Source: Pseudooceanicola lipolyticus
GTDB lineage: Bacteria > Pseudomonadota > Alphaproteobacteria > Rhodobacterales > Rhodobacteraceae
DNA length: 41,423 nucleotides
Direction: 5' to 3'
Assembly (NCBI RefSeq): GCF_002786325.1
Contig: NZ_PGTB01000022.1
Span: 1 to 41,423 of the forward strand
Below the pieces are notes generated by a model. The model had not been told where the DNA came from, searched no databases, and was given only the letters and a program-made list of their open reading frames with translations. The stretch's first letter is position 1, and each line of letters begins with the position of its first letter. Both the position numbers and the translations under genes were made by a program. Shown here in pieces: positions 12,571 to 37,486 of this stretch.

Positions 12571-12615
12571 CTTACGTCCCCAGTTCTTATTTTCGTGCCC
12601 ATCGCCGCTTGGGCC

Positions 12616-13581: not shown

Positions 13582-13620
13582 CGCCCTGCCTTTCCTCTTG
13601 CCGTCATGACGCCCGCCGGA

Positions 13621-13640
13621 GGTGTCCGCCATGGGACACC
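13621..13640 (-). other. intercistronic hairpin between dgcN and dgcA
   Basis: GGTGTCC and GGACACC make a perfect 7-bp stem with a 6-nt loop in the 76-nt gap between dgcN and dgcA. It could be a partial terminator or an RNA processing or stability element. Nothing more can be said from sequence. Confidence 0.3.
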
Positions 13641-13657
13641 CCCGCCCGGTCGTCGGG

Positions 13658-14659: not shown

Positions 14660-14766
14660 TTCATATTCCTTCTGATTCTCCGCCAAGGATAAGGGATTGG
14701 CCGTGGGCAACGCTTCCGGTTTTCAGCGTGGCGCGATGCTGCTATGCAGCATCCTTCGGTAAACCC

Positions 14767-21717: not shown

Positions 21718-21781
21718 ACCGGCGGCAAGATCCGCTTGGCGGGCACGCCCCGCGCCTGAATCCTGGTAAAACACCCCGTTT

Positions 21782-21800
21782 AGAGCCAGAATTTGGCTCT
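21782..21800. other. short inverted repeat between the kinase and TPP-enzyme genes
   Basis: AGAGCCA and TGGCTCT flank a 5-nt centre, 65 nt after the kinase stop codon. It may be the kinase terminator, although no U run follows, or an operator for the catabolic run that starts at 21931. Confidence 0.35.
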
Positions 21801-21930
21801 TGCCCTGCGCGCCCACGCTGCCGACCAAAGCGTTTGTGACTTCTGCCAAAATCTTTCGATCTTGGTAATTGAGACCGTCTTCCCGGAAATATCCACTTCC
21901 AAGGCTAAAGGCTGCGCGAAGGAAAACCGG

Positions 21931-23754
21931 ATGAACAAGCGGAACGACAGTGTAGTTTCACGGGCTGGACCGGCCGATGTCGAAACGCCCTTGAAACAAG
22001 AGAAATTCGAGGTGCTGTTCGGCAGCGATGTGATGGCTGAAACCATCGGTTCCCTGTCGATTCCCTATATCGCCCTGAATCCGGGCGCGAGCTATCGCGG
22101 GCTGCATGACAGCCTGGTGAACTTTCTCGGCAATTCGGCCCCGCAGATGCTGTTGTGCCTGCATGAAGAACACGCCGTGGCCATTGCCCATGGCTATGCC
22201 AAGGTGACCGGCAAGGCGATGGCCGCCGTGGCCCATTCCAATGTCGGGTTGATGCATGCCACCATGGCGGTGTTCAACGCCTGGTGCGACCGGATGCCGG
22301 TGCTGTTGCTGGGCGCGACCGGGCCGGTGGACGCCGCCAAGCGCCGCCCCTGGATCGAATGGATCCACACTGCGCGCGACCAGGGCGCCCTGGTGCGCGA
22401 CTATACCAAATGGGATGATCAGCCCGCCTCGGCCGCGGCTGCGCGCGAGGCGCTGCTGCGCGCGGCCTGGATCGCCGATACCGTGCCGCAAGGCCCGGTC
22501 TACGTGAATCTCGACGCCGGTTTGCAGGAGGCGGTTCTTGACGCGCCGCTGCCGCCCATCGATGCCGCCCGCTTTCGGCCGCAGGTCAGTTCCGGCGCGT
22601 CGGCCGAACAGGTGGGTGACCTGGCCGCGCTTCTGGCCAAGGCCGAGCGGCCGGTTATCCTGGCCGGCCGCGCCTCGCGCAGCACCGAGGCATGGGAACT
22701 GCGGGTCAAGCTGGCCGAACGGTTGCAGGCCAAGGTGGTGACCGACCTCAAGATCGGCAGCACTTTCCCGACCGATCACCCGCTGCACTGCGGCGCGCCG
22801 GGCATTTACGTCAATCAGGACGGGCGCACCGCGCTGGCCGAAGCCGACGTCATCCTCAGCCTCGACTGGGTCGACCTGGGCGGCGCGCTGGATTCGGCCT
22901 TTGAAGGTGGTACGCCCGGCGCAACGGTGGTGCAGATCTCGTTGGATCACACGGTACATAACGGCTGGTCGATGGATCATCAGGCCCTGCCCACCGTTGA
23001 CATGATGATCGGCGCCGATCCGGATCAGGTGCTGCGCCCGATGCTGGCGGCGCTTGGCGAGGCCGAGACACCCGCGCCCGGGGCTCGGGAGCGCAAGCCC
23101 GAGGCCGACTTGCCCGAACTGAGCGGCCCGAACCTCATGATGGCCCATCTTGCCGCCGGGCTGAAACGTGCCGTGGGGCGGCGCAAGGTGTCTTTCGTGC
23201 ACTTGCCGCTGGGCTGGGATGGCGCGTTCTGGCACTTCCGCCATCCGCTGGATTTCCTCGGATCTGATGGCGGCGGCGGCATCGGCGGCGGGCCGGGCAT
23301 CGCCGTGGGTGCGGCGCTGGCCCTGCGCGAAACAGACCGGCTGCCGGTCTGTATCGGTGGCGACGGCGATTTCCTGATGGGGGTCACCGCGCTCTGGACG
23401 GCGGTGCATTATCGTATTCCGCTGCTCTATATCGTCGCCAACAACCAGTCGTTCTACAATGACGAGGTGCACCAGGAGCGGGTGGCGCGGATGCGCGACC
23501 GCAAGGTTGAAAACAAGTGGATCGGCATGCGCATGACCGACCCCGAAATCGACATTGCCGGCATGGGTGCGGCCCAGGGCGCGCGCGGCTTCGGCCCGGT
23601 CAAGACGCCCGAAGATCTGGAAGCGGTATTTGCCGAAGCCGTGGCCCATGTCGAGGCCGGTGGTGTCGCCGTTGTCGACGTGCGCACCGAGCCCGGTTAC
23701 ACGCCGGCGATGGTTGCCGCGCTGAACCGCCACGCTGGGGAGAAAGCGAAATGA
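21931..23754 (+). CDS. thiamine-diphosphate-dependent enzyme (acetolactate synthase/benzoylformate decarboxylase superfamily), intact
   Basis: A 607-residue TPP enzyme with the usual Pyr, central and PP domains. The cofactor-activating glutamate is Glu79 in LCLHEEHAVAIAHGYAKVTG. The metal/diphosphate motif is intact: Gly477-Asp478-Gly479-Asp480-Phe followed by Asn504-Asn505. The family cleaves or ligates 2-oxo acids or 1,2-diketone-like substrates, and the exact reaction is not readable. GGA 8-10 nt upstream fixes the ATG. Its stop overlaps the next ATG (ATGA), implying translational coupling to the decarboxylase-like protein. A degenerate paralogue ends the same gene run at 36434. Confidence 0.9.
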   Translation: MNKRNDSVVSRAGPADVETPLKQEKFEVLFGSDVMAETIGSLSIPYIALNPGASYRGLHDSLVNFLGNSAPQMLLCLHEEHAVAIAHGYAKVTGKAMAAVAHSNVGLMHATMAVFNAWCDRMPVLLLGATGPVDAAKRRPWIEWIHTARDQGALVRDYTKWDDQPASAAAAREALLRAAWIADTVPQGPVYVNLDAGLQEAVLDAPLPPIDAARFRPQVSSGASAEQVGDLAALLAKAERPVILAGRASRSTEAWELRVKLAERLQAKVVTDLKIGSTFPTDHPLHCGAPGIYVNQDGRTALAEADVILSLDWVDLGGALDSAFEGGTPGATVVQISLDHTVHNGWSMDHQALPTVDMMIGADPDQVLRPMLAALGEAETPAPGARERKPEADLPELSGPNLMMAHLAAGLKRAVGRRKVSFVHLPLGWDGAFWHFRHPLDFLGSDGGGGIGGGPGIAVGAALALRETDRLPVCIGGDGDFLMGVTALWTAVHYRIPLLYIVANNQSFYNDEVHQERVARMRDRKVENKWIGMRMTDPEIDIAGMGAAQGARGFGPVKTPEDLEAVFAEAVAHVEAGGVAVVDVRTEPGYTPAMVAALNRHAGEKAK

Positions 23755-24743
23755 GCAACCTGCGCCTTTCCGTCGCGATCGGAGATTATGACCGCAACCG
23801 CCCGCTGATTGACGGACGCTGCCAGATCGACGGTGTCGACCCGGTGGTCATGACGCTGACGCCGGAAGAGATGTTTTATCGCGCGATGCGCCACGAGGCC
23901 TTCGACATCTGCGAGCTGTCGCTGAGCAGTCACACCCTGCGCACCTCGCGCGGCGATTGTCCCTATGTCGGCGTTCCGGCCTTCGTGTCGCGGGCATTCC
24001 GCCACACTTCGATCATCGTGCGCTCGGACAGCGGGATCAAAACACCCGCCGACCTGCGCGGCCGCCGGGTGGGCATTCCCGAATGGCAGCTGACCGCAAT
24101 TGTCTGGATGCGGGCGATCCTGCAGGACGAATACGGCGTGAAGGCCAGCGAGATTCACTGGGTGCGCGGCGGTCTGGAAGAGCCGGGCCGGGCGGAAAAG
24201 GTCAAGATCGACCTGCCGGAAGGCGTGCAAATGAGCGAGATCGGCCCCGAGCAGACACTTCGCGATATGCTCGACAGCGGCGAGATCGACGCCTTTATGG
24301 GTCCGCGCGCGCCCACCAGCTTTCGGCCCGACAATCCGTCGCTGCGTTGGCTGTTCGACGATCCCACCGCCGAGGCGATGGCCTATTACCGCAAGACGGG
24401 CATGTTTCCGATGATGCATATCATCGGCATCCGCAAAAGCCTGGCCGAGGCGCATCCCTGGTTGCCGATGGCGGTGCTGAAAGGCTTTCAGGCGTCCAAG
24501 GACATCGCCCTGGACCATCTGGAAGACACCTCGGCCACCAAGATCACGCTGCCCTTCGTCGAAGAGCAGCTGCGCCAGGCCAAGGCGTTGATGGGACCGG
24601 ATTTCTGGCCCTACGGTCTGGCCGCGAACCGCAAGACACTCGATTACTTCCTTGAGCAGCACCATGCGCAGGGGCTGTCGAAACGGCGTGTCGCGGTCGA
24701 GGAGTTGTTTCACCCCGGCTCGATCGACGCGCATGTGATCTGA
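23751..24743 (+). CDS. 4,5-dihydroxyphthalate decarboxylase-family protein (periplasmic-binding-protein fold, cytosolic)
   Basis: A 330-residue protein with the type II periplasmic-binding fold of the NMT1/4,5-dihydroxyphthalate decarboxylase group. The opening SVAIGDYDRNRPLIDGR and the stretches FDICELSLSSH, RAFRHTSIIVRSD and DLRGRRVGIPEWQLTA closely follow the decarboxylase branch. There is no signal peptide or lipobox, so a cytosolic enzyme is more likely than a transporter subunit, and no ABC permease or ATPase lies near. It is translationally coupled to the TPP enzyme by an ATGA overlap, which suggests the two act on the same intermediate. Automatic annotation as an ABC solute-binding protein would probably be misleading. 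Confidence 0.82.
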   Translation: MSNLRLSVAIGDYDRNRPLIDGRCQIDGVDPVVMTLTPEEMFYRAMRHEAFDICELSLSSHTLRTSRGDCPYVGVPAFVSRAFRHTSIIVRSDSGIKTPADLRGRRVGIPEWQLTAIVWMRAILQDEYGVKASEIHWVRGGLEEPGRAEKVKIDLPEGVQMSEIGPEQTLRDMLDSGEIDAFMGPRAPTSFRPDNPSLRWLFDDPTAEAMAYYRKTGMFPMMHIIGIRKSLAEAHPWLPMAVLKGFQASKDIALDHLEDTSATKITLPFVEEQLRQAKALMGPDFWPYGLAANRKTLDYFLEQHHAQGLSKRRVAVEELFHPGSIDAHVI

Positions 24744-25028
24744 CCGGGTGTCGATCGCCAGAGCGCAAAAAGCTGGGGTTCGAGGTCATTGCGGATCTGG
24801 AATGGAGAATACTGGTAACATACTGAAACTACGCTGGATTACCGAGGATAATTCTGCTGAGTTCGGGGTGTGAAACATATCGGGACAGGTCCCGCGGGGA
24901 GACGGGCAAAGGTTTTCATATGGCTCAGCTATCCAAATAGCTTTGGCCTTGGTCCGGTGAAAGACGGAACACTTAAGGAACTAGGACCGGCCGTCGAAGC
25001 CGATCCGCTTCAGAGGAGGAGACATCTC
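24744..25028 (+). promoter_or_regulatory. spacer before the TRAP transporter genes
   Basis: 285 nt that are less GC-rich than the flanks and have no convincing gene. The only structures seen are a weak dyad GGTAA (24814-24818) with TTACC (24839-24843), and the strong AGGAGGA ribosome site at 25014-25020 for the solute-binding protein. An internal promoter for the TRAP genes is likely but not defined. Confidence 0.4.
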
Positions 25029-26000
25029 ATGAAACATGCATTGCGCGCCACGCTGGCGGGTGCTGCCACTGCTGCCAGCCTGTGCTTTGGGTCGATGGCA
25101 GCGCAGGCCCAGGTCACGCTCGGCTTCAACATTGAGGACCCGGCCGGATCGTACCATGCCGAGCTGACCGAGAAATTCGCCGATCTGGTGGAGGAGTATT
25201 CCGGCGGCGAGGTCAAGGTCATCGTCTATCCCGGCGGCCAGCAGGGCAATGCCCGCGAAAGCATCGAGGGCATGTTGATCGGCACGGTCGACATGACCAA
25301 GTCGCTGGACACCTTCGCGCCCATCGTGCGGGACGTCGAGGTTTTCGGCCTGCCATACCTTTATCAATCGCGCGACCAGTTCGTGAAATCGCTGGCCCTG
25401 CCCGAAGTGGCGGACGTGGTGCAGCGCCTCGAGGACGAGGGTCTGGTGGTGGTCGGCTGGTGGGAAAACGGCTTTCGCCACATGACCAACAACGTGCAGC
25501 CGATCCAGAAACCCGAGGATCTCGACGGGCTGAAGATGCGCACCCCGGTGAGCGTCACCCGCATGGAGATGTTCAAGCTGATGGGGGCAAACCCGGCGCC
25601 GCTGGCCTTTACCGAGGTGTTCACCGCGCTGCAGACCGGCGCCTTTGACGGCCAGGAAAACCCGCTGCAGCTGATCCTGTCGCACAAGCTGTTCGAAGTG
25701 CAGAAATACCTGTCGCTGACCAAGCACGTCTATAACCCGCAGATCGTCGTCGTCAGTTCGATCAAGTGGAACATGCTCTCGGACGAACAGAAGGCGGCCG
25801 TCCGCCGTGCCGCCGAAGAGATCGGTGACGAATACCGCGCCGACGGCGATGCGGTGGACGCGCAGATGCTGTCCGAACTGCAGGGCAAGATCGAGATCAA
25901 CGATGTCGACTTTGCGGCCTTCCAGGCGGCGCTCAAACCGATGTATGCGCAGTTCCCCAACCAGGAACTGGTCAACGCGATCCTTTCGACACTCGAATGA
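25029..26000 (+). CDS. dctP: TRAP transporter solute-binding protein, DctP family
   Basis: Periplasmic receptor of a TRAP importer, 323 residues. Residues 1-28 are a Sec signal ending AAQAQ. The mature protein has the DctP hallmarks: DGLKMRTPVS, whose Arg normally forms the salt bridge to the ligand carboxylate, GANPAPLAFTEVFTALQTG and FDGQENPLQLI. A carboxylate ligand is therefore likely but not identified. A strong AGGAGGA site precedes the ATG, consistent with high expression of a binding protein. The DctQ and DctM subunits follow directly. Confidence 0.95.
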   Translation: MKHALRATLAGAATAASLCFGSMAAQAQVTLGFNIEDPAGSYHAELTEKFADLVEEYSGGEVKVIVYPGGQQGNARESIEGMLIGTVDMTKSLDTFAPIVRDVEVFGLPYLYQSRDQFVKSLALPEVADVVQRLEDEGLVVVGWWENGFRHMTNNVQPIQKPEDLDGLKMRTPVSVTRMEMFKLMGANPAPLAFTEVFTALQTGAFDGQENPLQLILSHKLFEVQKYLSLTKHVYNPQIVVVSSIKWNMLSDEQKAAVRRAAEEIGDEYRADGDAVDAQMLSELQGKIEINDVDFAAFQAALKPMYAQFPNQELVNAILSTLE

Positions 26001-26059
26001 GATCATCCGGTGAAGCCGCGGCCCTGTCCGCGGCTTCCCGCCAGCATGAAAGATCGGCG

Positions 26060-26515
26060 ATGCTCAGCAAAATATTCAACCTGTTGGCTGCATTCCTGGT
26101 CGCGGCCATCGCGACGACCATGTCCTTGCAGGTGTTTCAGCGGTTCGTGATGAACCAGTCGCTGCCCTGGCCGGACGAACTGGTGGGCAACCTTCTGGTC
26201 GCCCTGGCGATGGTCGGCGGCACCCTGGCGATGCGCGATGGCGCCCATATCCGCGTGCGGGTGCTGTGGTACACCTTGCCGCAGCCCTGGGTGAACATCG
26301 TGCGCGTCACCGCCGACGTTCTGTCCATCGCCTTCCTGCTGCTGGTGGCCTGGGTGTCCTGGCCTAACGTCGTGCGGATGTGGCGGGTTGATCTGACCAC
26401 CCTGGATGTGCCGGTTGGCCTGTTCGTGGCCACCGTCCCGGTCTGCTTCGTCTGCATGGCCTATTACGTGATCCGCCGATCGGTCCTGACCGGTCCGAAA
26501 CACCTCGAAGACTGA
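26060..26515 (+). CDS. dctQ: TRAP transporter small permease subunit, DctQ family
   Basis: The four-helix small membrane subunit, 151 residues from the Met at 26060 (MLSKIFNLLAAFLVAAIATTM). The segment FQRFVMNQSLPWPDELVGNLLV between helices 1 and 2 is the DctQ signature. Two starts are possible. An ATG at 25997 overlaps the DctP stop as ATGA and would add 21 polar residues. The internal Met gives the normal short N terminus and is chosen here, although its ribosome site is weak. Together with DctM it forms the sodium-coupled permease in the inner membrane. Confidence 0.9.
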   Translation: MLSKIFNLLAAFLVAAIATTMSLQVFQRFVMNQSLPWPDELVGNLLVALAMVGGTLAMRDGAHIRVRVLWYTLPQPWVNIVRVTADVLSIAFLLLVAWVSWPNVVRMWRVDLTTLDVPVGLFVATVPVCFVCMAYYVIRRSVLTGPKHLED

Positions 26516-26535
26516 AGCCAAAAGGGAATGATATC

Positions 26536-27813
26536 GTGACGGTACTGTTTATCGTTGGAACCCTGCTCTTCCTGGTGTTGACCGGGATGCCGATCGCCCT
26601 GGCGCTTGGGGGAACGGGGCTGATCGTGGTGCTCTCGGCGGGCCTGCCGCTGCAGGCGGTGCCGCAACTGATCTACAACTCGGCCAATGCCTATGCGCTC
26701 ACCGCCATTCCGCTGTTCATGCTGATGGGCGCGATCGTGGAAAAGGCGGGCATGGGCAAGCACATGATCGACTTTGCCAGCACGCTGGTCGGCTGGATGC
26801 GCGGCGGCCTGGCCCATGTGAACACCGTGGTCTCGTTCCTCTTTGCTGGCATGAACGGCTCGTCCGGGGCCGATGTGGCCAGCATGGGGCCGATCCTGAT
26901 CCCCGAGATGAAGCGCAAGGGCTATCCGGTCAACTTTGCCGCGGCGATCACCTCCAGCACCAGCGACGCCGCCATCCTGATCCCGCCCAGCATCACGCTG
27001 ATCGTCTATGGCGTTCTGGCGAATGTCTCGATCACCCGCATGTTCCTGGCGGGCATCATTCCGGGCATCGTGCTTATGTTGGCCTACATGGCGCTGTCGC
27101 ATTACTTTGCGGTCAAGCATCAGTGGCCGGTTCACGAGACCTTCAATGTCAAGCGCGTCGCACCCGCAACGCGCAAGGCCGGTCCGGCCCTGCTGATCCC
27201 GCTGATCATCATGGGCGGCATCCTTGGCGGGGTGTTCACGGCGACCGAGGCCGCCTCGGTCGCGGTGTTCGCGGCCACCGCCATCGTGCTGGTGTTCTAT
27301 CGCAACGTATCGCTGAAGGATGCCTACGAGATCCTGCTGATCACCGCCAAGCGCACCGGCATGGTGATGATGATCGTCGCCGCCTCCGGCATTCTGGCCT
27401 GGTATCTGTCGAACCGGCAGATCCCGCAGCAGATGGCGATGGCGCTGCTGGAATTCACCGACAACTACTATGCGATCACGCTGATCGTCAGCGCCTTCCT
27501 GATCATGCTGGGCACCATGATCAACGGTGTCCCGGCCATGATCATCCTGGTTCCGGTGCTGCTGCCGATCATGACCGCGATCGAGATGGACCCGATCCAT
27601 TTCGGTATCATCTTCGCGCTGGCCACCACGGTCGGGTCGCAAACCCCGCCGGTGGCCTCGACCATGCTGCTTACCTGCGCCATCGCCGGGATATCCATCG
27701 GCGAGATGTGGAAGGTGAACCGCTGGTTCATTCTGGTCAATATCATCGTGATGCTGATCGTGGCCGTCGTCCCGGTGTTCAGCCTGTGGCTGCCCAGCGC
27801 GATCCTTGACTGA
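26536..27813 (+). CDS. dctM: TRAP transporter large permease subunit, DctM family
   Basis: The 425-residue, roughly 12-helix transport subunit. It begins at a GTG preceded by AAAGGGA. Family marks include FLVLTGMPIALALG, GMNGSSGADVASMGPILIPEM, ITSSTSDAAILIPPSI and the second-half repeat LGTMINGVPAMIILVPVLLPI with VGSQTPPVASTML. These paired serine/glycine-rich clamshell loops form the sodium and substrate sites. Its stop overlaps an ATG at 27813, linking it closely to the following NTF2-like gene, so that gene probably belongs to the same message. Confidence 0.95.
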   Translation: MTVLFIVGTLLFLVLTGMPIALALGGTGLIVVLSAGLPLQAVPQLIYNSANAYALTAIPLFMLMGAIVEKAGMGKHMIDFASTLVGWMRGGLAHVNTVVSFLFAGMNGSSGADVASMGPILIPEMKRKGYPVNFAAAITSSTSDAAILIPPSITLIVYGVLANVSITRMFLAGIIPGIVLMLAYMALSHYFAVKHQWPVHETFNVKRVAPATRKAGPALLIPLIIMGGILGGVFTATEAASVAVFAATAIVLVFYRNVSLKDAYEILLITAKRTGMVMMIVAASGILAWYLSNRQIPQQMAMALLEFTDNYYAITLIVSAFLIMLGTMINGVPAMIILVPVLLPIMTAIEMDPIHFGIIFALATTVGSQTPPVASTMLLTCAIAGISIGEMWKVNRWFILVNIIVMLIVAVVPVFSLWLPSAILD

Positions 27814-27833
27814 TGCAGAAGCGGAGAACAGCC

Positions 27834-28316
27834 ATGCTCGACAGTTTTATCGACCCCGAGGACGAGCGCAGGATCCACCGGCTCTATGCCCTCTATTGTC
27901 ACTTTTTCGCCCATGGCGAGCCGGAGGAGTGGGTTTCGATTTTCACACCCGACGGCGTCTTTGCCAAGCTCAGCGCTTCGCAGGGCGGGCTGGGCACCTC
28001 GGCCCAGACCGTCGAAGGGCACGCGGCGCTTCTGGAGATGACCAAGGGGCGGCGCGAGATGTTCCAGGGCCAGGTTCGACACCAGCAGACCGATATCGTG
28101 ATCCTGCCCGGTGCCGATGCCGACAGCGCGGTGGGTCATTCGCTGATCCTAGTCACCGACTGGCGGTCGGGGCAGGGACGCCTGGCGGCGCTGGGCAGTT
28201 GCAAGTCCGAGTTCAAGCGCATCGCGGCGGGCTGGCGGTTTCAACGGATCGAGCTGACCGCCCTGCCCAAGCCAAACGCGCAGGCAGGCACGGCCGAGCG
28301 GACGGCACAGGCATGA
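27834..28316 (+). CDS. NTF2-like (SnoaL/scytalone-dehydratase-like) protein
   Basis: A 160-residue protein with the alpha+beta cone fold. It opens DPEDERRIHRLYALYCHFFAHG and continues WVSIFTPDGVFAKL, the usual first half of SnoaL-like domains, and later has VRHQQTDIVI. The family includes dehydratases, isomerases and dioxygenase small subunits as well as binding proteins. A His and Asp in the cone could be catalytic but cannot be assigned. The ATG at 27834 has GGAG 7 nt upstream. An earlier ATG at 27813 overlaps the DctM stop. Its stop overlaps the next start as ATGA. Confidence 0.8.
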   Translation: MLDSFIDPEDERRIHRLYALYCHFFAHGEPEEWVSIFTPDGVFAKLSASQGGLGTSAQTVEGHAALLEMTKGRREMFQGQVRHQQTDIVILPGADADSAVGHSLILVTDWRSGQGRLAALGSCKSEFKRIAAGWRFQRIELTALPKPNAQAGTAERTAQA

Positions 28317-29131
28317 AAGATGGCATGATCTGCGTCTCGCACCTGACCGCGCTGGACGCCGCGCCCGAGCTGTTTATCACCGCGGCGGCCAACGCCGGGT
28401 TCACCGGTGTGGGTCTGCGGGTTCTGCCGCCCCGGCACGCGCCGCTGCAATACCCGGTGGCGGTGGATCCGGCGCGCTGCAAGGCGCTGCGGATGCAGGC
28501 CGATGACCTGGGAATTACCGTGTTCGAGGCGGAATCCTTCGCGATGGAGGCCGACGCATCGATCGAAACCTTCCTGCCCGGGCTGGAGGCCGGCGCCGTG
28601 CTGGGCGCCTCGGTGCTGGTATCCGGCGCGGTGGATCCGGACGAGACCCGGCTGGTCGAGAACTATGCCCGGCTGGCCGAGGCCGCGGCCGAGTTCGGGA
28701 TCACCATGGCCATCGAATTCATGCCCTCGCGCCCGATGAAATCCCTGCGTGACGGTCTGCGAGTGCTGGACAAGGTGGATCACCCCAACGCGCGGCTGCT
28801 GATCGACGTGCTGCACCTGATCCGCTCGGGTGGCACGATCGAGGAACTGGCGGCGGTGCCCGAGGACAAGATTGCCTATGTCCATCTCAGCGACGCCCCG
28901 CTCGCCCATCCGGGGCAGGAGGGGCTGACCCCCGAAAGCCGCGCGGGCCGGCTGTATCCGGGCGAGGGCGAATTGCCGCTTGCGGCGCTGTTCTCGGTGC
29001 TGCGCAGCGATATCGCGGTAAGCCTCGAGGCCCCGCACCGCGACCAGCAGGACCTGCCGCCAACCGAACGGGTGCGTCGCGCCGGGGCGCAGACCCTGTC
29101 CTTTATGCGGGGCATCCGGGCCGCGGCTTGA
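28313..29131 (+). CDS. TIM-barrel sugar-phosphate isomerase/epimerase family protein
   Basis: A xylose-isomerase-like TIM barrel of 272 residues. Probable divalent-metal ligands are the Glu in MAIEFMP, the Asp and His in LLIDVLHLIRSG, the His in YVHLSDAP and the Glu in SLEAPH. The family includes epimerases, inosose dehydratases and 3-dehydroshikimate dehydratases, so isomerisation or dehydration of a hydroxylated intermediate is the reasonable role. It is translationally coupled to the NTF2-like gene. The minus-strand gene at 37487 is its paralogue and shares the xRSG motif after the metal Asp-His. Confidence 0.87.
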   Translation: MKDGMICVSHLTALDAAPELFITAAANAGFTGVGLRVLPPRHAPLQYPVAVDPARCKALRMQADDLGITVFEAESFAMEADASIETFLPGLEAGAVLGASVLVSGAVDPDETRLVENYARLAEAAAEFGITMAIEFMPSRPMKSLRDGLRVLDKVDHPNARLLIDVLHLIRSGGTIEELAAVPEDKIAYVHLSDAPLAHPGQEGLTPESRAGRLYPGEGELPLAALFSVLRSDIAVSLEAPHRDQQDLPPTERVRRAGAQTLSFMRGIRAAA

Positions 29132-29151
29132 ACCATTGAACCATTGAACCG
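29128..29151 (+). repeat. three tandem copies of an octamer
   Basis: TTGAACCA, TTGAACCA and TTGAACCG stand head to tail, the first copy containing the TGA stop of the TIM-barrel gene. The array lies in the 62-nt gap before the MFS gene. Such short arrays can change copy number by slippage. Here a change would alter only the spacing between the genes. Confidence 0.8.
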
Positions 29152-29193
29152 ATCCGCCACGCCTGACGCGGCGCGAACGAGGATAGGACCGAC

Positions 29194-30360
29194 GTGAAAC
29201 GCGGCAGGGTGTTGAATCTGGCGGTGCCGATCATGGCGAGCGGCTTTGTCGGTCAGATCGTCGGCCTGTCCACCCGCATCGGCATCGGCTATGAGGCGAT
29301 CGAGATCGGGCTCTCCGCCTCTGCGATCCTCGTGCTGACCGCGGCCTTCTCCTTTGTGCCGATCTTCCTGACGATGTTTGTCGGCCGGTTCACCGACCGC
29401 AACGGAGCGGGCCGGGTGATCCTGGCCGGAGCCTGCATCCTGTTTGTCGGCGCTGCCCTGCCGGCGCTGCTGCCGCCTTCGATTCCGGTTTTCCTGCTGG
29501 CGATGACCTGTCTCGGCGTCGGGCAGACCTTTCAGATCGCGTCGCTGCAGGCGGAAATCTCGCTCACCGGGCGGATCCGCCACCGCGACCGGATGATCGG
29601 CTGGTTCATGGTCTGGCAATCCACCGGTCAGGTCATGGCACCGCTGCTGTTGACCGCCGCAAGTTTCCTGCAGTTTCCGGTGCCCCATGTCGCGATGATG
29701 TGGATCGCCATGGCGTTTGCGGTTGGCCAGGTTGGCCTGGCCCTGCAGATCCGCAGGTTCTCCAAGATACCGGTGCAGAATGACATGCCGCTGCCGCTGG
29801 GCGAGATCGTCGGCACGCCGGGGCTTGCCTGGCTTGCGGTCTCCGGCAGCCTCTGTGTGGCGACGCAGGAAATGACCTATGTCTTCATGCCGCTGGTGGC
29901 CACCGAACGCGGGATCGACCCGGCGCTGGTCGGGATCATGCTGGGCGCGTTTTCATTTACCCAGCTTGTGGCCCGGGCGGTCTATCCCGGTGCCGCCGCC
30001 CGCTGGGGCCGCGAACGGCTGATGGCGGCATCGCTGCTGATCACCGCGGCCATCTTCGCCGCCTTTGCCCTGCCGATGCCCGCCATGATCATGGCGCTGT
30101 TTCTTGCGGCGGCGGGCCTCAGCCTGGGATTTGCGGTGACCTGTTCGGTGTCTTTGACGATGCAGCTTGCCCCGGCGCGGGCCAAGGGAACGGCGCTGTC
30201 GCTTCGCCTGGCGGTCAACCGGACCGGGCAATTTGCGATGCCGCTGGTGTCCGCCGTCGCCACCCCCTGGCTTGGCACCGGCGGTGTGTTCCTGACCTGC
30301 GGATTGGTGATCGGCCTCTGCCTGCCCTTCCTGCCAACTGCCTTGAGAACGGGACGATGA
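29194..30360 (+). CDS. MFS transporter
   Basis: A 388-residue major facilitator with about 12 hydrophobic helices. The cytoplasmic loop between helices 2 and 3 carries GRFTDRNGAGRV, the usual MFS signature region, and its second-half counterpart is ARWGRERLMAAS. It starts at a GTG after an AGGA site. Inside a catabolic run that already has a TRAP importer, it may export an intermediate or import a second form of the substrate. The direction cannot be read from sequence. Confidence 0.88.
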   Translation: MKRGRVLNLAVPIMASGFVGQIVGLSTRIGIGYEAIEIGLSASAILVLTAAFSFVPIFLTMFVGRFTDRNGAGRVILAGACILFVGAALPALLPPSIPVFLLAMTCLGVGQTFQIASLQAEISLTGRIRHRDRMIGWFMVWQSTGQVMAPLLLTAASFLQFPVPHVAMMWIAMAFAVGQVGLALQIRRFSKIPVQNDMPLPLGEIVGTPGLAWLAVSGSLCVATQEMTYVFMPLVATERGIDPALVGIMLGAFSFTQLVARAVYPGAAARWGRERLMAASLLITAAIFAAFALPMPAMIMALFLAAAGLSLGFAVTCSVSLTMQLAPARAKGTALSLRLAVNRTGQFAMPLVSAVATPWLGTGGVFLTCGLVIGLCLPFLPTALRTGR

Positions 30361-30472
30361 GGGCGCGGGGCCCATACATAAGCCGATGTGGCTGCGAGAC
30401 ATTAATACTATTCGGTTTCGCGCCGACGGGCATCTAACCTGATCGCAAGTGATGATGATGCCGAGAGACAGG

Positions 30473-31531
30473 ATGAACGGGCAGAAACCGCGTGTCACCT
30501 ATTTCGAGAAATGGGTCGATCCGGTCGCGGTGACGCGGCTGGAGGAGGAGGGCAGCATCGACCTGATCCGGCAGTCTTATGACGACCCCGAGGCGCTCAA
30601 CCGCGAGCTGATGGACACGGCGCAGGGCTATCAGATCGCGCCGCGCGTCGAGCTGAAGGCGCCATGGTTCGCCGATGCCGCCTTTGTCGCCCGCCACCCC
30701 GCGCTGCTTGCCATCTGCTCCACCGGCTCCGGCTATGACGTGATCGACGTGGAGGCCTGTACCCGGGCGGGGATTGTCGTGTGCAACCAGGCCGGCACCA
30801 ATGCGCAGCCGGTGGCCGAACATGCCGTGGCGCTGATGCTGACCCTGTCCAAGCGGCTGGTCTCGACCGACCGCGCGCTGCGGCGGCAGGGCCGCGTCGA
30901 ACGCTTCGCCTATCCCGGCAATGATCTGTTCGGCAAGACGGTGGGGATTGTCGGCCTGGGCCATATCGGGCGCCGGGTGGCCGGGATTTGCCGGAACGGG
31001 TTTGGCATGACCGTGCTTGCCTGTGATCCCTATCTGCCCGGCGACGAGATCGCGGCGCGCGGTGCCACCGAAACCACCTTCGACACCCTGCTGGCCCGCA
31101 GCGATTTTGTCTCGGTCAACTGTCCGCGCACCGCCGAGACGCTGGGCATGTTCGGCGTCGAGGCTTTTGCCGCGATGAAACCTTCGGCCTATTTCATCAA
31201 CACCGCGCGCGGTGGCATCCATGACGAAACCGCGCTGGCCGCGGCGCTGCGCGCCGGCAGCATCGCCGGCGCCGGCCTGGACGTTTTTCTTGAAGAGCCG
31301 CCGGCGCAGGATCACCCGTTGCTGGCCTTCGACAACGTGGTCGCCAATCCGCATATTGCCGGGCTGACCCACGAGTCCCTCTACACCATGAGTGCCGAGG
31401 CCGCCGCGCAGTGGATCACGCTGTTCCGGGGCGAGGTGCCGCCCCGTCTGATCAACCCGGCCGCCTGGCCTAAATTCTGCGACCGTTTCGAGGCCGCTTT
31501 CGGCAGCCGCCCGGCCGCTCTGACCAACTGA
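30473..31531 (+). CDS. D-isomer-specific 2-hydroxyacid dehydrogenase
   Basis: A 352-residue NAD(P)-dependent dehydrogenase. The Rossmann motif is GIVGLGHIGRRVAG. The substrate-binding Arg lies in NTARGGIHDE, the acidic partner in LDVFLEEPP and the catalytic His in NPHIAGLTHES. It would interconvert a 2-hydroxy acid and a 2-oxo acid, and the 2-oxo form is the type of substrate TPP enzymes of this cluster use. Several starts are possible (GTG 30449, three consecutive ATGs from 30452, ATG 30473). The last has the most purine-rich upstream sequence and is used here. Confidence 0.9.
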   Translation: MNGQKPRVTYFEKWVDPVAVTRLEEEGSIDLIRQSYDDPEALNRELMDTAQGYQIAPRVELKAPWFADAAFVARHPALLAICSTGSGYDVIDVEACTRAGIVVCNQAGTNAQPVAEHAVALMLTLSKRLVSTDRALRRQGRVERFAYPGNDLFGKTVGIVGLGHIGRRVAGICRNGFGMTVLACDPYLPGDEIAARGATETTFDTLLARSDFVSVNCPRTAETLGMFGVEAFAAMKPSAYFINTARGGIHDETALAAALRAGSIAGAGLDVFLEEPPAQDHPLLAFDNVVANPHIAGLTHESLYTMSAEAAAQWITLFRGEVPPRLINPAAWPKFCDRFEAAFGSRPAALTN

Positions 31532-31541
31532 AGGAAACCCG

Positions 31542-31997
31542 ATGCCCTCCAAAGTTCTCTGCCTCAACGGCCCCAACCTCAACATGCTGGGGGTTCGTGA
31601 ACCCGAACTCTACGGGCGCACCACGCTGGCGCAGGTCAAGGCCGCGGTGGAAGAGCGTGCCGCCAGCCACGAGATCGAGATCGATTTTCGTCAGTCCAAT
31701 TCCGAGGCCGAGCTGGTGACCTGGATCCAGGAGGCCTATCAAAAGGTTGATGGCGTCATCATCAACCCGGCGGCCTATACCCATACCTCGATCGCCATTG
31801 CCGACGCGCTGCGGATCCTCGACTGCCCGATCATCGAGCTGCATTTCAACAATTCCTACCGCTATGCCGACCGGGCCTTCCGCCATCTGTCGCATGTCCG
31901 CCCGGTGGCGACGGGGGTGATCTTTGGCTTTGGCGCAAGTGGCTATCTTGCGGCCATCGAGGCGATGCAGCTGCTGCTGAAGCCGCCGTTCGAGTGA
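31542..31997 (+). CDS. type II 3-dehydroquinate dehydratase-like protein
   Basis: A 151-residue flavodoxin-like dehydratase of the AroQ family, which removes water from 3-dehydroquinate. Kept features are NGPNLNMLGVREPELYG with the lid Arg19 and Tyr24, FRQSNSEAELV, NPAAYTHTS, Glu99 and the catalytic His101. The active-site segment normally written HxSNxHxREx is changed to HFNNSYRYADRAF, with Ser to Asn and about two extra residues. It lies in a catabolic run 10 nt after the 2-hydroxyacid dehydrogenase, so it may work in quinate-type degradation or on a related alicyclic acid rather than in aromatic amino acid synthesis. Confidence 0.85.
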   Translation: MPSKVLCLNGPNLNMLGVREPELYGRTTLAQVKAAVEERAASHEIEIDFRQSNSEAELVTWIQEAYQKVDGVIINPAAYTHTSIAIADALRILDCPIIELHFNNSYRYADRAFRHLSHVRPVATGVIFGFGASGYLAAIEAMQLLLKPPFE

Positions 31998-32027
31998 CCG
32001 GGCGCGGGCCGAAGGGGAGGGGGCGCA

Positions 32028-33086
32028 TTGGCTGAGCGGCAGAAACTGGCGATTATCGGCGCCGGCCTGATGGGGCGCCATCACCTGGCGGTTGCGCTGG
32101 CCAATCCCGAGATCGAGGTGGTCGGTGTGGCCGACCCGGTCGCCGCCTCGCGCGCGAAGGTGGCAAGTTTGGGCGTGCCCACCTTCGCCGACCATCGCGA
32201 ATTGCTTGACCGCACCGCGCCCGATGGTGCGCTGGTTGCCACCCCCAATGCGTTTCACGCCCCGATTGCCATCGACTGCATCCAGCGGGGGATTCCGACC
32301 CTGGTGGAAAAGCCGCTGGCCGATACGCTTCCCGCCGCGCGTGCCGTGCTGGCGGCACAGCAACAGCAGGATGTGCCGGTGCTGGTCGGCCATCACCGGC
32401 GGCACAATCCGCTGTTGCAGGCCGCCCGCGCCCATATTGCCGAGGGCGGGCTGGGCCGCATCTGCGCCGTTTCGGCCACCTGGCTGCGGCGCAAGCCGGA
32501 TGAATATTTCAACGATGCCTGGAAGCGCGACCATGCCAGCGGCGGCGGCGTCATCCTGATCAACGCGGTGCATGATTTCGACACGCTGCGGATGCTGTGC
32601 GGCGATATCGAGGCGATCTGCGCCACCACTTCGAACGCGGTCCGCGGCTATGATGTCGAGGATACCGCCGCCATCGTCGCCCGGTTCAAATCGGGCACGC
32701 TGGCCACGCTGACCGTGTCGGACACCGTCGTCGCCCCGTGGTGCTGGGAGATGACCGCGCGGGAAGATCCGCGTTTTGCCACCGTGCCGGAAAACAGCTA
32801 TCTGCTGTGCGGCACCCAAGCCTCGCTGGCGATCCCGACACTGGAGCGGTGGAGCAACCTGCCCAATGGCGGCCGCGACGCCAGCTTTACCCGCCAGCGC
32901 CTGTATTATGTCGCGGCGGATTCCATGACGCTGCAGATGGCCCATTTCCTCCGGGTGATGCGGGGTGAGGAGCCGCCGGCGATCACCGCCGAGGACGGGC
33001 TGAGAACCGCCGCCGCGACGCTTGCGGTGTCTGAATCGGTCAAAACGGGCGGCTGGGTCGATGTCGATGCGCTGGCCGCGCTCTGA
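32028..33086 (+). CDS. Gfo/Idh/MocA-family NAD(P)-dependent oxidoreductase
   Basis: A 352-residue dehydrogenase that starts at TTG, fixed by GGAGG 7 nt upstream. The Rossmann fingerprint is IIGAGLMGRHHLAVA. EKPLAD holds the catalytic Lys, and GGGVILINAVHDFDTLRML provides the conserved His of the C-terminal domain. Members oxidise a ring or chain hydroxyl of sugars, inositols and related polyols. A second, distant member of the family heads the opposite-strand operon at 41101. The substrate is unknown. Confidence 0.9.
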   Translation: MAERQKLAIIGAGLMGRHHLAVALANPEIEVVGVADPVAASRAKVASLGVPTFADHRELLDRTAPDGALVATPNAFHAPIAIDCIQRGIPTLVEKPLADTLPAARAVLAAQQQQDVPVLVGHHRRHNPLLQAARAHIAEGGLGRICAVSATWLRRKPDEYFNDAWKRDHASGGGVILINAVHDFDTLRMLCGDIEAICATTSNAVRGYDVEDTAAIVARFKSGTLATLTVSDTVVAPWCWEMTAREDPRFATVPENSYLLCGTQASLAIPTLERWSNLPNGGRDASFTRQRLYYVAADSMTLQMAHFLRVMRGEEPPAITAEDGLRTAAATLAVSESVKTGGWVDVDALAAL

Positions 33087-33194
33087 AACCGGCGGATTAA
33101 GCCAGGATCTCTCTGGCAGGAAGAACGATCCGGTTTTGGACAGCATCGCCCGATCCGGGTCTACTCGTTCCTGTCGAATTAAAGGGGGCCAAGA

Positions 33195-34685
33195 ATGTCC
33201 GAAGCCATAGCCGCGCAGCTGCCTGCAACCGAATCCGTGCTGCCCAAGCAACGCGGGCTCTATTTCGCCGGGGAATGGCACGAGGCGACCGGGGCGCGCA
33301 GCTTTGAGACCTTCAGCCCGGGCAGCGGCAAGTCCCTGGGCCAGGTGGCCGAGGCCGGCGAGGCGGATGTTGCGGCGGCCATCGGCGCGGCGCATGCGGC
33401 CTTTCCGGAATGGAGCGCGGTGCCGCCGCTGGAGCGCGCCCGCATCCTGCGCGAGCTGGCCCGCATCGTGCGCGAAAATGCCCATGAACTTGCCCTGCTT
33501 GACGCTGTCGATTGCGGCAACCCGGTGCGCGCCATGGTCGGGGACGCCAATATCGCCTCGGCGCAGATCGAGCTGTTTGCCGGGCTGGTCACCGAGATGA
33601 AAGGCGCCTCGATCCCGATGGGACCCGGCCGGCTGAACGTGTCGGTGCGCGAACCGCTGGGGGTGGTCGCCCGGATCTCGCCCTTCAACCACCCTTTCAT
33701 GTTCGCCGCCGCCAAGATCGCGGCGCCGCTGGCCGCCGGCAACACGGTGCTGATCAAGCCGCCGGAACAGGCCCCGCTTTCCGCCCTGCGCCTGGCTGAA
33801 CTGGCCGGCGATCTTTTTCCACCGGGCGTGTTCAACGTGGTCACCGGCAGTTCGCGCGAGGTGGGCGCCTGGATCGTCGCCGATCCGCGCGTGGCCAAGG
33901 TGGGCCTGATCGGCAGCGTCGCGGCGGGGCAGGCGGTGATGCGCAACTCGGCCGATGCGCTGCGCCCGGTGCTGTTGGAACTGGGCGGCAAGAATGCCCT
34001 GATCGCCTATCCCGACGCCGATCCCGATGCGGTGGCGCAGGCCATGGTCGCGGGCATGAATTTCGCCTGGTGCGGCCAGTCCTGCGGGTCGACCAGCCGG
34101 GTGTTCCTGCATGGTGACATTCACGACGCGGTTCTGGCCCGGGTGGCCAAGCATATCCAGGCCTTCACCCCCGGTCTGCCCGAGTCGTGGGACACCACGA
34201 TGGGCGCCCTGGCCAGCAAGGCGCAATACGACCGCACCCTGCACTATATCGAAACCGGCCGCGCCGAAGGCGCCACCGTCTTTGCCGGGGGAAAACCCCC
34301 CGACACCCCCGCCCTTGCCGAGGGCTATTTTGTCGAGCCGACGATCTTTACCGACGTCACCTCGGACATGACCATCGCGCGCGACGAGATCTTCGGCCCG
34401 GTCTGTTCCGTTCTGCGCTGGCAGGACGAGGCGACGATGCTGGCCGAGGTGAACGCGCTGGACGTCGGCCTGACCTGTTCGATCTGGACCCGCGATTTCG
34501 ACGCGGCCCTGCGAACCGCCACCGCGGTCGAGGTTGGCTATGTCTGGGTCAACGAGGTCAGCAAGCATTTCGTGGGCGCGCCCTTTGGCGGCAAAAAGCA
34601 ATCCGGCATCGGCCGCGAGGAATGTATCGAAGAGATGCTGTCTTTTACCGACCTCAAGAACATCCACATGAAATTCGCCGGTTGA
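33195..34685 (+). CDS. NAD(P)-dependent aldehyde dehydrogenase
   Basis: A 496-residue ALDH-superfamily enzyme that oxidises an aldehyde to the acid. The catalytic Cys297 lies in WCGQSCGSTSR and the general-base Glu262 in LELGGKN. The oxyanion Asn lies in ISPFNHPF, and FGGKKQSGIGREE closes the C terminus as in betaine- and benzaldehyde-type enzymes. A spacer of 108 nt and an AAAGGGGG ribosome site precede it. An aldehyde is the expected product of a TPP decarboxylase, so it plausibly acts after the TPP step. The second TPP-like gene starts 3 nt after its stop. Confidence 0.93.
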   Translation: MSEAIAAQLPATESVLPKQRGLYFAGEWHEATGARSFETFSPGSGKSLGQVAEAGEADVAAAIGAAHAAFPEWSAVPPLERARILRELARIVRENAHELALLDAVDCGNPVRAMVGDANIASAQIELFAGLVTEMKGASIPMGPGRLNVSVREPLGVVARISPFNHPFMFAAAKIAAPLAAGNTVLIKPPEQAPLSALRLAELAGDLFPPGVFNVVTGSSREVGAWIVADPRVAKVGLIGSVAAGQAVMRNSADALRPVLLELGGKNALIAYPDADPDAVAQAMVAGMNFAWCGQSCGSTSRVFLHGDIHDAVLARVAKHIQAFTPGLPESWDTTMGALASKAQYDRTLHYIETGRAEGATVFAGGKPPDTPALAEGYFVEPTIFTDVTSDMTIARDEIFGPVCSVLRWQDEATMLAEVNALDVGLTCSIWTRDFDAALRTATAVEVGYVWVNEVSKHFVGAPFGGKKQSGIGREECIEEMLSFTDLKNIHMKFAG

Positions 34686-34688
34686 GCC

Positions 34689-36434
34689 ATGACCTCCTCC
34701 AGCAGCCGCGATGACGATCAGCAGGACGCCCGGCCCGAGATCGCCGGGATCGCCGCCAACCGGCGCGGTTCGGTCTTCGGGTTTTCGATCGAGCCGGCGC
34801 GATTCGAGGTGGAACGCCCGGTTCGGGTGACGCCGCCAAAAGCGCTGTTCGGGAGCGACCTGATCGCCGAAACCCTGCGCGAGCTTGATATCCCCTTCGT
34901 CGCCATGACGTCCGGGCCGGTGCTGGGCGAGCTGAACGACAGTCTGGTGAACTACCTGGGCAACACGCGGCCCCAGCTGCTGTCTTGTCTCGATGACGAG
35001 ATCGCGCTGGCGATGGCCCATGGCTATGCCAAGGTGACCGGTCGGCCGATGGCGGTGGCGCTGTCGCAGGGCGCGCCCCTCGCGCCCGGCTCGACCCTAT
35101 GCGCGGCAAAGCGCGATGCGGTGCCGCTTGTGGTGCTGGAAACCGCCGATGCGCCACACGAACCCGCCTCGCCCATATTGCTGGCGGATTTTGCGCCGTC
35201 CTGTCCCGGCGAAGCCCGCTATGCCATCCTGCAGGCCAACCGCATGGCCCAGGCCCAGCCGCAGGGGCCGGTGCGTGTGACCCTGAGCCGCGCGGTGCAG
35301 AGTGCCTCGGTCGCGCCGCTGGACACCCGCCGCAACCCGCAGCGCTATCGCGCCCGCGTCAGCAACGGGGCCGGGCGCGCGGATGTGGCCGAACTGGCCG
35401 CCATGCTTCTCGAGGCCGAACGCCCGCTGATCCTGGCCGGACTGGTCTCGCGGTCGCCCGCGGGCTGGGACGAACGTGTCAGGCTTGCGGAACTGCTGGG
35501 GGCGCAGGTTCACGCCGCCGCGGGCAACCCGGCAGCCTTCCCCACCGACCACCCCCTGTTTCTGCCCGAGATCAGCCCCAGCGACCTGTCGCAATCCGAT
35601 GTCCTGCTCAGCCTTGACTGGCCCGATCTGGCCGGGTTCACGCGCGGCAGCTATCGCGAACGCAATCCGCACGCCACGATCATCGAAGTGTCGCCCGACG
35701 TGGCGCGCAAGCTGGCACGCGGCGGTGAATGTGACACCCCGACACCCAGCGACATGTTGATCGAGGCGGATGTGGACCAGGTGATCGGCGCCCTGGTTGA
35801 AGAGATGGGCGATATCTCGTCGCCCCATCAAACCGTGAAACATGCCGCGGTTGCACCGGAACCGCCGGGCGACAGGACCGACGGGCCGTTGTCGCGCGCC
35901 GATGTCACGCGCGCCCTGTCGCGGGTCGCGGCGAGCCGGGCGCTTTGTATTGCCTCGGTGCCCCGGGGCTGGCCGATAGGCGGTTTTGCTGTCCAGGGGC
36001 CGCTCGACTATCTCGGGGCGGGCAACAGCGCGCCGGCGCAGGCCATCGGCTCGGCGCTGGCGCTGGTCGGCAGCGACCGCATGACCGCGGCCGTGGTCGG
36101 GGCGGCCGGGTTCATCGCCGGTGCGGCCGCGCTCTGGACCGCCGCGCATTATCGCATTCCGCTGATGCTGCTGGTGATCAGCGAGCCCGCCGGAGACGGG
36201 TCTTCCGACGGTCAGGCCCCGATTGCCCAGGCGCGCGGCCGCACTGCCGAAAACGCCTGGATCGGGCATCGGATCAGCCAGCCAGAGGTTGATATCTGTG
36301 CGCTGGCAGAGTCCCTGGGCGCACTGGGCCTTGATGCAGGGTCAGACTATACTCAGCTGGGGGCCGCCCTGGCGAAAGCCGTGCATCATGTCGAGAAGGG
36401 TGGCGTGGCGGTTGTCGATGTTCGATTATCGTGA
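34689..36434 (+). CDS. degenerate TPP-enzyme paralogue, probable pseudoenzyme subunit
   Basis: A 581-residue paralogue of the intact TPP enzyme at 21931. Clear shared stretches are LFGSDLIAET, DSLVNYLGN, AHGYAKVTG, ALWTAAHYRIPL, AENAWIG and VEKGGVAVVDVR. The key residues are changed. The cofactor-activating Glu is Asp103 in LDDEIALA. The metal motif GDGDF has become GAAGF (471-475), and the metal-side Asn pair has become Ser498-Glu499. Metal-TPP binding therefore looks impossible, yet the frame is intact and the folds seem preserved. It starts 3 nt after the aldehyde dehydrogenase stop. A structural or regulatory partner of the active paralogue is my inference; decay is the alternative. Confidence 0.85.
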   Translation: MTSSSSRDDDQQDARPEIAGIAANRRGSVFGFSIEPARFEVERPVRVTPPKALFGSDLIAETLRELDIPFVAMTSGPVLGELNDSLVNYLGNTRPQLLSCLDDEIALAMAHGYAKVTGRPMAVALSQGAPLAPGSTLCAAKRDAVPLVVLETADAPHEPASPILLADFAPSCPGEARYAILQANRMAQAQPQGPVRVTLSRAVQSASVAPLDTRRNPQRYRARVSNGAGRADVAELAAMLLEAERPLILAGLVSRSPAGWDERVRLAELLGAQVHAAAGNPAAFPTDHPLFLPEISPSDLSQSDVLLSLDWPDLAGFTRGSYRERNPHATIIEVSPDVARKLARGGECDTPTPSDMLIEADVDQVIGALVEEMGDISSPHQTVKHAAVAPEPPGDRTDGPLSRADVTRALSRVAASRALCIASVPRGWPIGGFAVQGPLDYLGAGNSAPAQAIGSALALVGSDRMTAAVVGAAGFIAGAAALWTAAHYRIPLMLLVISEPAGDGSSDGQAPIAQARGRTAENAWIGHRISQPEVDICALAESLGALGLDAGSDYTQLGAALAKAVHHVEKGGVAVVDVRLS

Positions 36435-36550
36435 GCAAATGACAGGATGATCTGTTCGGGGCGCGCGCGGACCTGTCGACAGCTGCCGCAGCAGCGATAA
36501 CCGCGCCTCGAACCGGCAACACGGGCCAATGGCAACGGGAGGATGCCCCC

Positions 36551-37474
36551 ATAAATATCAGACAGCTGCGATACTTCTCGAAAACCGTCGAGGTCGGGAA
36601 CATCACCCGTGCGGCCGAGCAGCTTAACGTCGCGCAGCCGGCGCTGGGGCTTCAGATCCGCCAGCTTGAAAACGAACTGGGCGTGCCGCTGCTTGTGCGC
36701 CATTCGCGCGGGGTGACGCCGACCCGTTCGGGTCAGGTTTTGTACGAGCGCGCCTGCGAGATCCTGCGCATTGTCGAGAACACCAAGAACGAGATCATGG
36801 GCTTTGCCGGCAGCGAGCGGGAAAGCCTGATCCTGGGCATCACCCCCGGCCTGACCAATGTGATGGGCCGCAAGATCTTTGTCGATGCCCGCGAAGCCCT
36901 GCCCGATGTCCATCTCAGCATGGTGGAAGAGATGAGCTATGTGCTGATCGAGGCGCTGGAGCGGGATGAGATCGACCTTGCGATTGCCTATGAGGTCGCC
37001 GATCGCCCGGCGCTGCTGCGCGCGCCGCTGTTGGTGGAGGAACTGGTTTTCGTGGCGGCGCCCAAAACCGCAGAAGGGCTGGGCGACACCATCGAGATGG
37101 CCGATGTGCTGGAACGCGAGCTGGTTCTTGCCGGTGAACGTGACCCGGTGCGCCAATTGGTGGTGGGCGCGGCGGAACGGCTGGCGCTGCCGCTGAAGGT
37201 CGGCTTCGAGGCGACCTCGGTCTCGATGATGAAAAGCCTGGTGATGCGGGGGGACGCCGCCAGCGTCATGCCACGCGGCAGCGTCGGGGCCGAGATCGAC
37301 ACCGGCCGGCTGGTCGGCCTGCGCATCGTCAACCCGGTGGTCTCGCGAACGCTCTATCTGGTGCGCTCCTCGCGGCGCGCACCGTTCCAGGCCGAGGCGG
37401 AAATATCCGATTTCCTGTTCGCGATGGTCGACAGCTTTGCCGAGCGTATGGGCAACCTGGTGCACAAGCTCTGA
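36551..37474 (+). CDS. LysR-family regulator with a probable AUA start codon
   Basis: A LysR regulator of 307 residues when translation begins at ATA 36551: (M)NIRQLRYFSKTVEVGNITR, then RAAEQLNVAQPALGLQIRQLE as helix-turn-helix. No ATG, GTG or TTG lies in frame between the upstream stop at 36440-36442 and GTG 36683, and starting at that GTG would delete most of the DNA-binding domain. GGAGG at 36538-36542 is 8 nt before the ATA, ideal for initiation there. One missing C in the run at 36546-36550 would instead join the frame to ATG 36543, so sequence error must be considered. As the only regulator between the two catabolic operons, it probably controls them. Confidence 0.85.
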   Translation: MNIRQLRYFSKTVEVGNITRAAEQLNVAQPALGLQIRQLENELGVPLLVRHSRGVTPTRSGQVLYERACEILRIVENTKNEIMGFAGSERESLILGITPGLTNVMGRKIFVDAREALPDVHLSMVEEMSYVLIEALERDEIDLAIAYEVADRPALLRAPLLVEELVFVAAPKTAEGLGDTIEMADVLERELVLAGERDPVRQLVVGAAERLALPLKVGFEATSVSMMKSLVMRGDAASVMPRGSVGAEIDTGRLVGLRIVNPVVSRTLYLVRSSRRAPFQAEAEISDFLFAMVDSFAERMGNLVHKL

Positions 37475-37486
37475 CCGGCGCGCCGG

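Follow-up and report, generated by a model that had tools for sequence, protein, structure and literature searches.

An intact thiamine diphosphate enzyme and a full-length paralogue without its cofactor site at the two ends of a gene run in Pseudooceanicola lipolyticus

What can a full-length enzyme paralogue still do when the residues that hold its cofactor are gone? The question is raised by a stretch of 41,423 nucleotides from Pseudooceanicola lipolyticus (hereafter the window), in which 13 genes, all on the plus strand, span positions 21931-36434. The first of them, P1, encodes a thiamine diphosphate (ThDP) enzyme similar to benzoylformate decarboxylases, and the last, P2, encodes a paralogue of it. 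The two proteins, of 607 and 581 amino acids and both free of internal stops, align over 577 columns with 38% identity (E value 1e-95), and the N, M and C domains of Pfam TPP_enzyme score above their cut-offs in both. A first annotation of the window (the original prediction) had already described the two genes as paralogues placed first and last in one run, and the alignment bears this out.

P1 carries the activating Glu (E79), the metal motif GDGDF (477-481) and the second part of that motif, an Asn pair (NN, 504-505); the aligned residues of P2 are D103, GAAGF (471-475) and SE (498-499), exactly as had been predicted. Since a GDG and NN pair shifted elsewhere in P2 had been named as the observation that would speak against this loss, the P2 sequence was searched for a displaced cofactor motif, and neither an NN nor a GD-x(20-40)-N[NDGRC] pattern was found, so that this candidate was rejected. 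The sole GDG of P2 (502-504) lies just past the aligned site of the lost NN, with no Asn pair behind it. Judged from the alignment, the loss of the cofactor site is wider than first read, two active-site loops being deleted as well: P1 residues 112, 137-155, 286-292 and the glycine-rich 447-451 are deleted in P2, whose C-terminus is also 20 residues shorter. The closest known proteins are benzoylformate decarboxylase (e.g. structures 1bfd/1pi3, 6qsi and 7orx) and PRK08327 (NF006203). P2 shares the three-domain fold but, unlike benzoylformate decarboxylase, is without the Glu, the two metal ligands and the two deleted loops of the active site. NF006203 is the best NCBIfam model for P1, and both proteins score below its cut-off of 456 bits (P1 239.8, P2 113.1). 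On these features P2 is not classed as an active ThDP enzyme, having the fold and lacking both the Glu and the GDG...NN motif, and the sequence strongly indicates that it no longer binds Mg-ThDP.

To see how the losses are distributed along P2, we compared it with P1 and 60 relatives, a set of 61 sequences that all have the Glu, the Asp and the Asn. Conservation in this set reaches 90% or more in 108 columns; of these positions, 107 are retained in P1 and 60 in P2. Inside the active-site loops P2 retains 9/47 conserved positions, and outside them 51/61 (Fisher p 1.8e-11, to be read as descriptive only, as the loop segments were chosen after the alignment had been viewed, from general knowledge of ThDP sites). 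When each of the 61 intact sequences was left out in turn, the lowest values were 33/48 inside the loops and 51/63 outside. By this measure P2 conserves its scaffold to about the degree seen in its most divergent intact relatives, and its active site is erased; the fold segments around the lost residues, which had been described as conserved, are indeed so.

Active sites in the ThDP superfamily form at a subunit interface, where a PYR domain from one chain meets a PP domain from a second, and the activating Glu is absent in some members, e.g. glyoxylate carboligase. On the PYR side, P2 has lost the residues aligned to P1 P51, S54, R56, G57, H59, E79, H102, V105, G106, N116 and 137-161; on the PP side, neither metal ligand remains and the glycine loop is missing. 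With neither half preserved in P2, a P1-P2 dimer of the canonical kind would be without a fully intact site. This bears on the option, raised by the original prediction, that P2 completes the active site of a live partner by joining its PYR half to the PP half of P1. Such a hybrid site would fit the carboxylate still present at position 103 and the AMAHGYAKVTG segment retained after it, but the PYR half of P2 is without many conserved residues (the set from P51 to 137-161) and the opposite hybrid would be without both metal ligands; since conserved residues are missing from each half of the composite site, this option is disfavoured and we consider it very improbable. The remodelled pocket might instead support new, ThDP-independent chemistry. 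This would agree with the keeping of the fold and of the place in the operon, and with a pocket altered beyond point mutations, but the deletions shorten that pocket and no new conserved catalytic set is recognisable without orthologues, and so this reading, if a little better than the hybrid site, also seems improbable.

We surveyed the same residues among relatives of P1. A pattern scan of a collection of 84,980 species confirmed 189 relatives, the best 80 of which were kept. Of the 80 loci from the genome collection, 79 carry the activating Glu, the Asp of the metal motif and the latter Asn of the pair, the exception (L059) ending before the metal site, and 8 additional loci are intact. In an alignment of 160 rows (158 related frames, P1 and P2), where all of those 80 loci are represented, some rows are one gene under two locus identifiers and 24 weaker loci (L004, L011-L033) have no row, 145 rows carry the three residues, 13 are truncated or masked at some of these sites with no replacement at the remainder, and 2 are P2 itself. 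Asp103 of P2 is unique in the 62-row alignment, the other 61 rows having Glu. The survey leaves out 48 records from the PLSDB plasmids, all below 60% identity (top identity 35.4% among the 40 listed). Four loci of family f104 (L175, L176, L177 and L178, from G1020, G943, G749 and G854) carry 6, 6, 5 and 6 adjacent TPP-enzyme genes; the pattern from metal motif to NN is found in 23/23 of their frames, and the Glu pattern is unmatched in 9/23, the Glu itself being unread there.

P2 has the coding statistics of a normal gene, and its frame is full-length and uninterrupted, as described in the original prediction. The GC content at third codon positions is 0.80 in both P2 and P1 (range in the run, 0.79-0.88), and codon usage correlates with that of the operon with r 0.94 for P2 and 0.96 for P1, falling to 0.74 for the P2 antisense strand and 0.46 for a shifted P2 frame. 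All deletions in P2 are of whole codons. AlphaFold2 predicts for P2 a confident benzoylformate-decarboxylase fold, with a structure match (the P1 model has a predicted local distance difference test score, pLDDT, of 90.8). We also simulated unconstrained divergence starting from P1, with the base composition of the window, a transition bias of 2 and indels ignored. Frames free of stops made up 6% at 0.11 substitutions per site, 0.3% at 0.22 and 0/300 at 0.44. Since long drift would have yielded stops, P2 appears to have diverged mostly under constraint, although a short, recent unconstrained phase (no more than about 0.1 substitutions per site) is possible. The clustering of the losses, the codon usage and the simulation led us to disfavour an account of P2 chiefly in terms of random drift or of a pseudogene. 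Taken together, sequence and model support a P2 that is translated, adopts an enzyme-like fold and is selected for that fold. The source genome (5,229,069 bases) is in 439 contigs with an estimated contamination of 5.68%, which would be compatible with an assembly or binning artefact, but P2 follows on from the operon without a break, in frame and with the same codon usage, so that such an artefact deserves almost no credence.

Apart from itself, P2 matches best to L181 in genome G1077 (317.7 bits) and then to P1 (313.1 bits); these are intact enzymes of P1 type. In a tree built without the loop columns from 33 of the 62 rows, P2 lies beside P1 and its orthologues (SH-like approximate likelihood ratio test, SH-aLRT, about 84). 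A P1-P2 sister pair is weakly rejected with the full alignment (approximately unbiased test, p-AU 0.024), and a grouping of P2, P1 and L134 is not rejected with the loop columns dropped and 33 rows (p-AU 0.104). P2 shares about as many residues with the P1 orthologues as with P1 itself: 29 with P1 against 26 with L134, and 29 with P1 against 29 with L181. P1 and P2 themselves are too divergent for their synonymous sites to be compared. A recent duplication of P1 was rejected as the source of P2 on the weak rejection of the sister pair and this near-equal sharing. As far as the sequences allow, P2 probably derives from an enzyme of P1 type and branched off earlier than, or at about the time of, the divergence between P1 and its orthologues; we are unsure of its placement in the tree. 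It would then either have been lost elsewhere or have been acquired from an unsampled lineage.

We think it most likely that P2 would serve P1 without catalysis of its own, as a subunit or an effector. A dimer of P2 could dock on one of live P1 to give a tetramer like that of benzoylformate decarboxylase, where it would stabilise or tune P1 while supplying no active-site residues; alternatively, P2 may be an effector that touches P1 transiently. Judging from gene content, the D-2-hydroxyacid dehydrogenase of the run would make a 2-oxoacid that P1 probably decarboxylates to an aldehyde, which the aldehyde dehydrogenase (ALDH) would oxidise, and the presence of AroQ and of a weakly QuiC-like barrel hints at quinate- or shikimate-type substrates. 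The account as a whole, of P2 as a pseudoenzyme derived from a P1-type enzyme and serving P1 without catalysis, is the one that we favour, tentatively and at somewhat less than an even chance. More doubtful is its specific form, an obligate or regulatory P1-P2 hetero-oligomer, in which a ThDP decarboxylase would have an operon-encoded, cofactor-free paralogous subunit that, through its retained fold, would determine how stable, how cooperative or how broad in substrate range the live P1 dimer is. We know of no described ThDP decarboxylase with a dedicated cofactor-free paralogous subunit. The original prediction had likewise known of no ThDP enzyme paired with such a pseudoenzyme in one operon, and in the open-licence literature we found none, nor any ThDP pseudoenzyme partner or inactive paralogue pair, nor a paper that brings together dihydroxyphthalate decarboxylase, thiamine pyrophosphate and TRAP.

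Several observations weigh against P2 as a subunit or effector of P1. Ten genome searches (E thresholds of 1e-3, 1e-40, 1e-30 or 1e-60; two of them covering the source genome only) sampled groups of genomes rather than exhausting them, and found no P2 orthologue beyond the source genome in 1746 genome searches, repeats included (genome identifiers run to G1421). Orthologues of P1 are present in G1077 (74%), G535 (72%) and G844 (65%), and in both G1077 and G535 the match is single and intact, with no P2. The co-occurrence of the two paralogues, proposed as a check by the original prediction, thus failed to appear in the sampled genomes, even where P1 orthologues of 72-74% are present. This single-genome distribution limits the interest of P2. 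Further, P1 itself, at 107/108 conserved positions, shows no sign of needing a partner, and its physical contact with P2 is hypothetical. The source genome also encodes a second intact P1-type enzyme, 55% identical to P1 (C22:40837-42540; L003, L167), which could be an alternative partner of P2; it adjoins an ALDH (59%), a 2-hydroxyacid dehydrogenase and DctM, in an arrangement near-identical to one in G370. Finally, the terminal branch of P2 in the 62-row tree is 3.32 (median 0.37), a length that also fits relaxed selection.

The long branch and the presence in one genome alone are what would be expected if P2 were a relic on its way to loss, an enzyme under selection for most of its history and lately inactivated, and a frame that stays free of stops through some 0.1 substitutions per site at most is compatible with an absence of constraint (6% of simulated frames at 0.11). 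However, the losses are many and concentrated in the active site (38/47 loop positions against 10/61 outside), as random decay would not leave them, and every deletion is of whole codons; we judge a relic to be rather improbable.

Around the P1 orthologue of G1077 we recognised an ALDH (70%), a 2-hydroxyacid dehydrogenase (60%), a SnoaL-like gene (56%) and the homologue of the substrate-binding protein (73%), with one P1-type TPP gene, and near that of G535 the substrate-binding homologue alone. Among 30 P1-type loci (at least 10 kb each, some near-duplicates and one from the source genome), the substrate-binding homologue is found in 11/30 and an ALDH in 14/30. The basic module seems to be one TPP enzyme with these partners, and P2 an addition to it.

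Dead paralogues of live enzymes are described in other systems. The trypanosome S-adenosylmethionine decarboxylase (AdoMetDC) prozyme (PMC6221367, PMC5201418) and a dead deoxyhypusine synthase paralogue (PMC3663545) are described in these reports as activating live enzymes. Like the trypanosome prozymes, P2 has lost catalytic residues and shares its genome with a live paralogue, and by analogy it may work as they do; however, the folds are unrelated, the pair is not conserved across the sampled genomes, and association and activation are reported for the prozymes, while P2 is known from the sequence of one genome. Yeast Thi3, a non-enzymatic relative of ThDP decarboxylases with a regulatory role, has a pseudo active site that, according to PMC10246790, binds TPP, and P2 may work like Thi3, if less closely than like the prozymes. 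Unlike Thi3, P2 has, from its sequence, lost the metal and diphosphate site and the glycine loop, and the role in transcription described in that report concerns Thi3 alone. P2 might also bind a ligand or regulate independently, without joining P1, for example as a sensor of a pathway acid, similar in idea to Thi3. The fold of P2 is retained and catalysis lost, a LysR-type gene is next on the same strand, and Thi3 itself is a decarboxylase relative that has a pseudo active site and regulates transcription (PMC10246790). Nevertheless, P2 has no DNA-binding or other extra domain in a Pfam scan, should not bind TPP, unlike Thi3 as described, and any ligand of P2 is hypothetical; we consider an autonomous regulator unlikely, if the strongest rival of the subunit or effector role. 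The several ThDP-enzyme paralogues of unclear role in Mycobacterium tuberculosis (IlvB2, IlvG and IlvX, similar to acetohydroxyacid synthase, AHAS) are also comparable; the available part of PMC6996392 terms them catalytic subunits and does not describe loss of the cofactor site.

The genes of the run and the regulator that follows it are listed in Table 1. Intergenic gaps within the run are of -4 to 126 bp with the starts of open reading frames (ORFs) as used, and 3 bp separate the ALDH stop from the P2 start. The gap ahead of DctP, of 126 bp or of about 285 bp if DctP starts later, may contain an internal promoter. A scan of 21500-37500 gave 5 promoter-like sites (shuffled mean 2.9) and 12 terminator-like sites (shuffled mean 9.4), too near the shuffled means to be informative. 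An ORF at 27806-29131 (plus strand), in its 27806-28312 part, overlaps the SnoaL-like gene in a different frame, and the TIM-barrel gene probably starts near 28313. The LysR-type gene has no ATG, GTG or TTG ahead of the typical N-terminus; its frame reads ATA-AAT-ATC..., that is (M/I)NIRQLRYF, and its start codon may be ATA. On the minus strand at 11707-14710, DUF1611, enolase-superfamily and class IV aminotransferase genes are adjacent, a trio that recalls a D-amino-acid utilisation cluster.

Table 1. Genes of the 21931-36434 run and the gene that follows it
Product	Position	Strand	Remarks
P1, intact ThDP enzyme, benzoylformate-decarboxylase-like	21931..23754	+	E79, GDGDF 477-481, NN 504-505
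Substrate-binding-fold protein	23751..24743	+	Weak NMT1/THI5-like match
TRAP transporter DctP	24870..26000	+	Start near 25029 fits better, judged by eye
TRAP DctQ	25997..26515	+	
TRAP DctM	26536..27813	+	
SnoaL-like protein	27813..28316	+	
Xylose-isomerase-like TIM barrel	28313..29131	+	Weakly QuiC-like; QuiC model match below its cut-off
MFS-like membrane protein	29194..30360	+	Named by eye, no domain scan
D-2-hydroxyacid dehydrogenase family	30449..31531	+	
Type II 3-dehydroquinate dehydratase (AroQ)	31542..31997	+	
Gfo/Idh/MocA oxidoreductase	32028..33086	+	
Aldehyde dehydrogenase (ALDH)	33195..34685	+	Directly 5' of P2
P2, degenerate full-length P1 paralogue	34689..36434	+	D103, GAAGF 471-475, SE 498-499
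LysR-type regulator, after P2	36551-37474	+	

The observation of a full-length paralogue without a cofactor site is confirmed, and is sharper than first reported. Since the sites of the ThDP family are built by two subunits, the pair offers a clean setting in which to ask what a cofactor-free subunit still does. P2 also splits the signal of fold from that of catalysis, the positions that it keeps being candidates for the scaffold and those that it has lost candidates for the cofactor site, in a catabolic group of enzymes that is poorly characterised.

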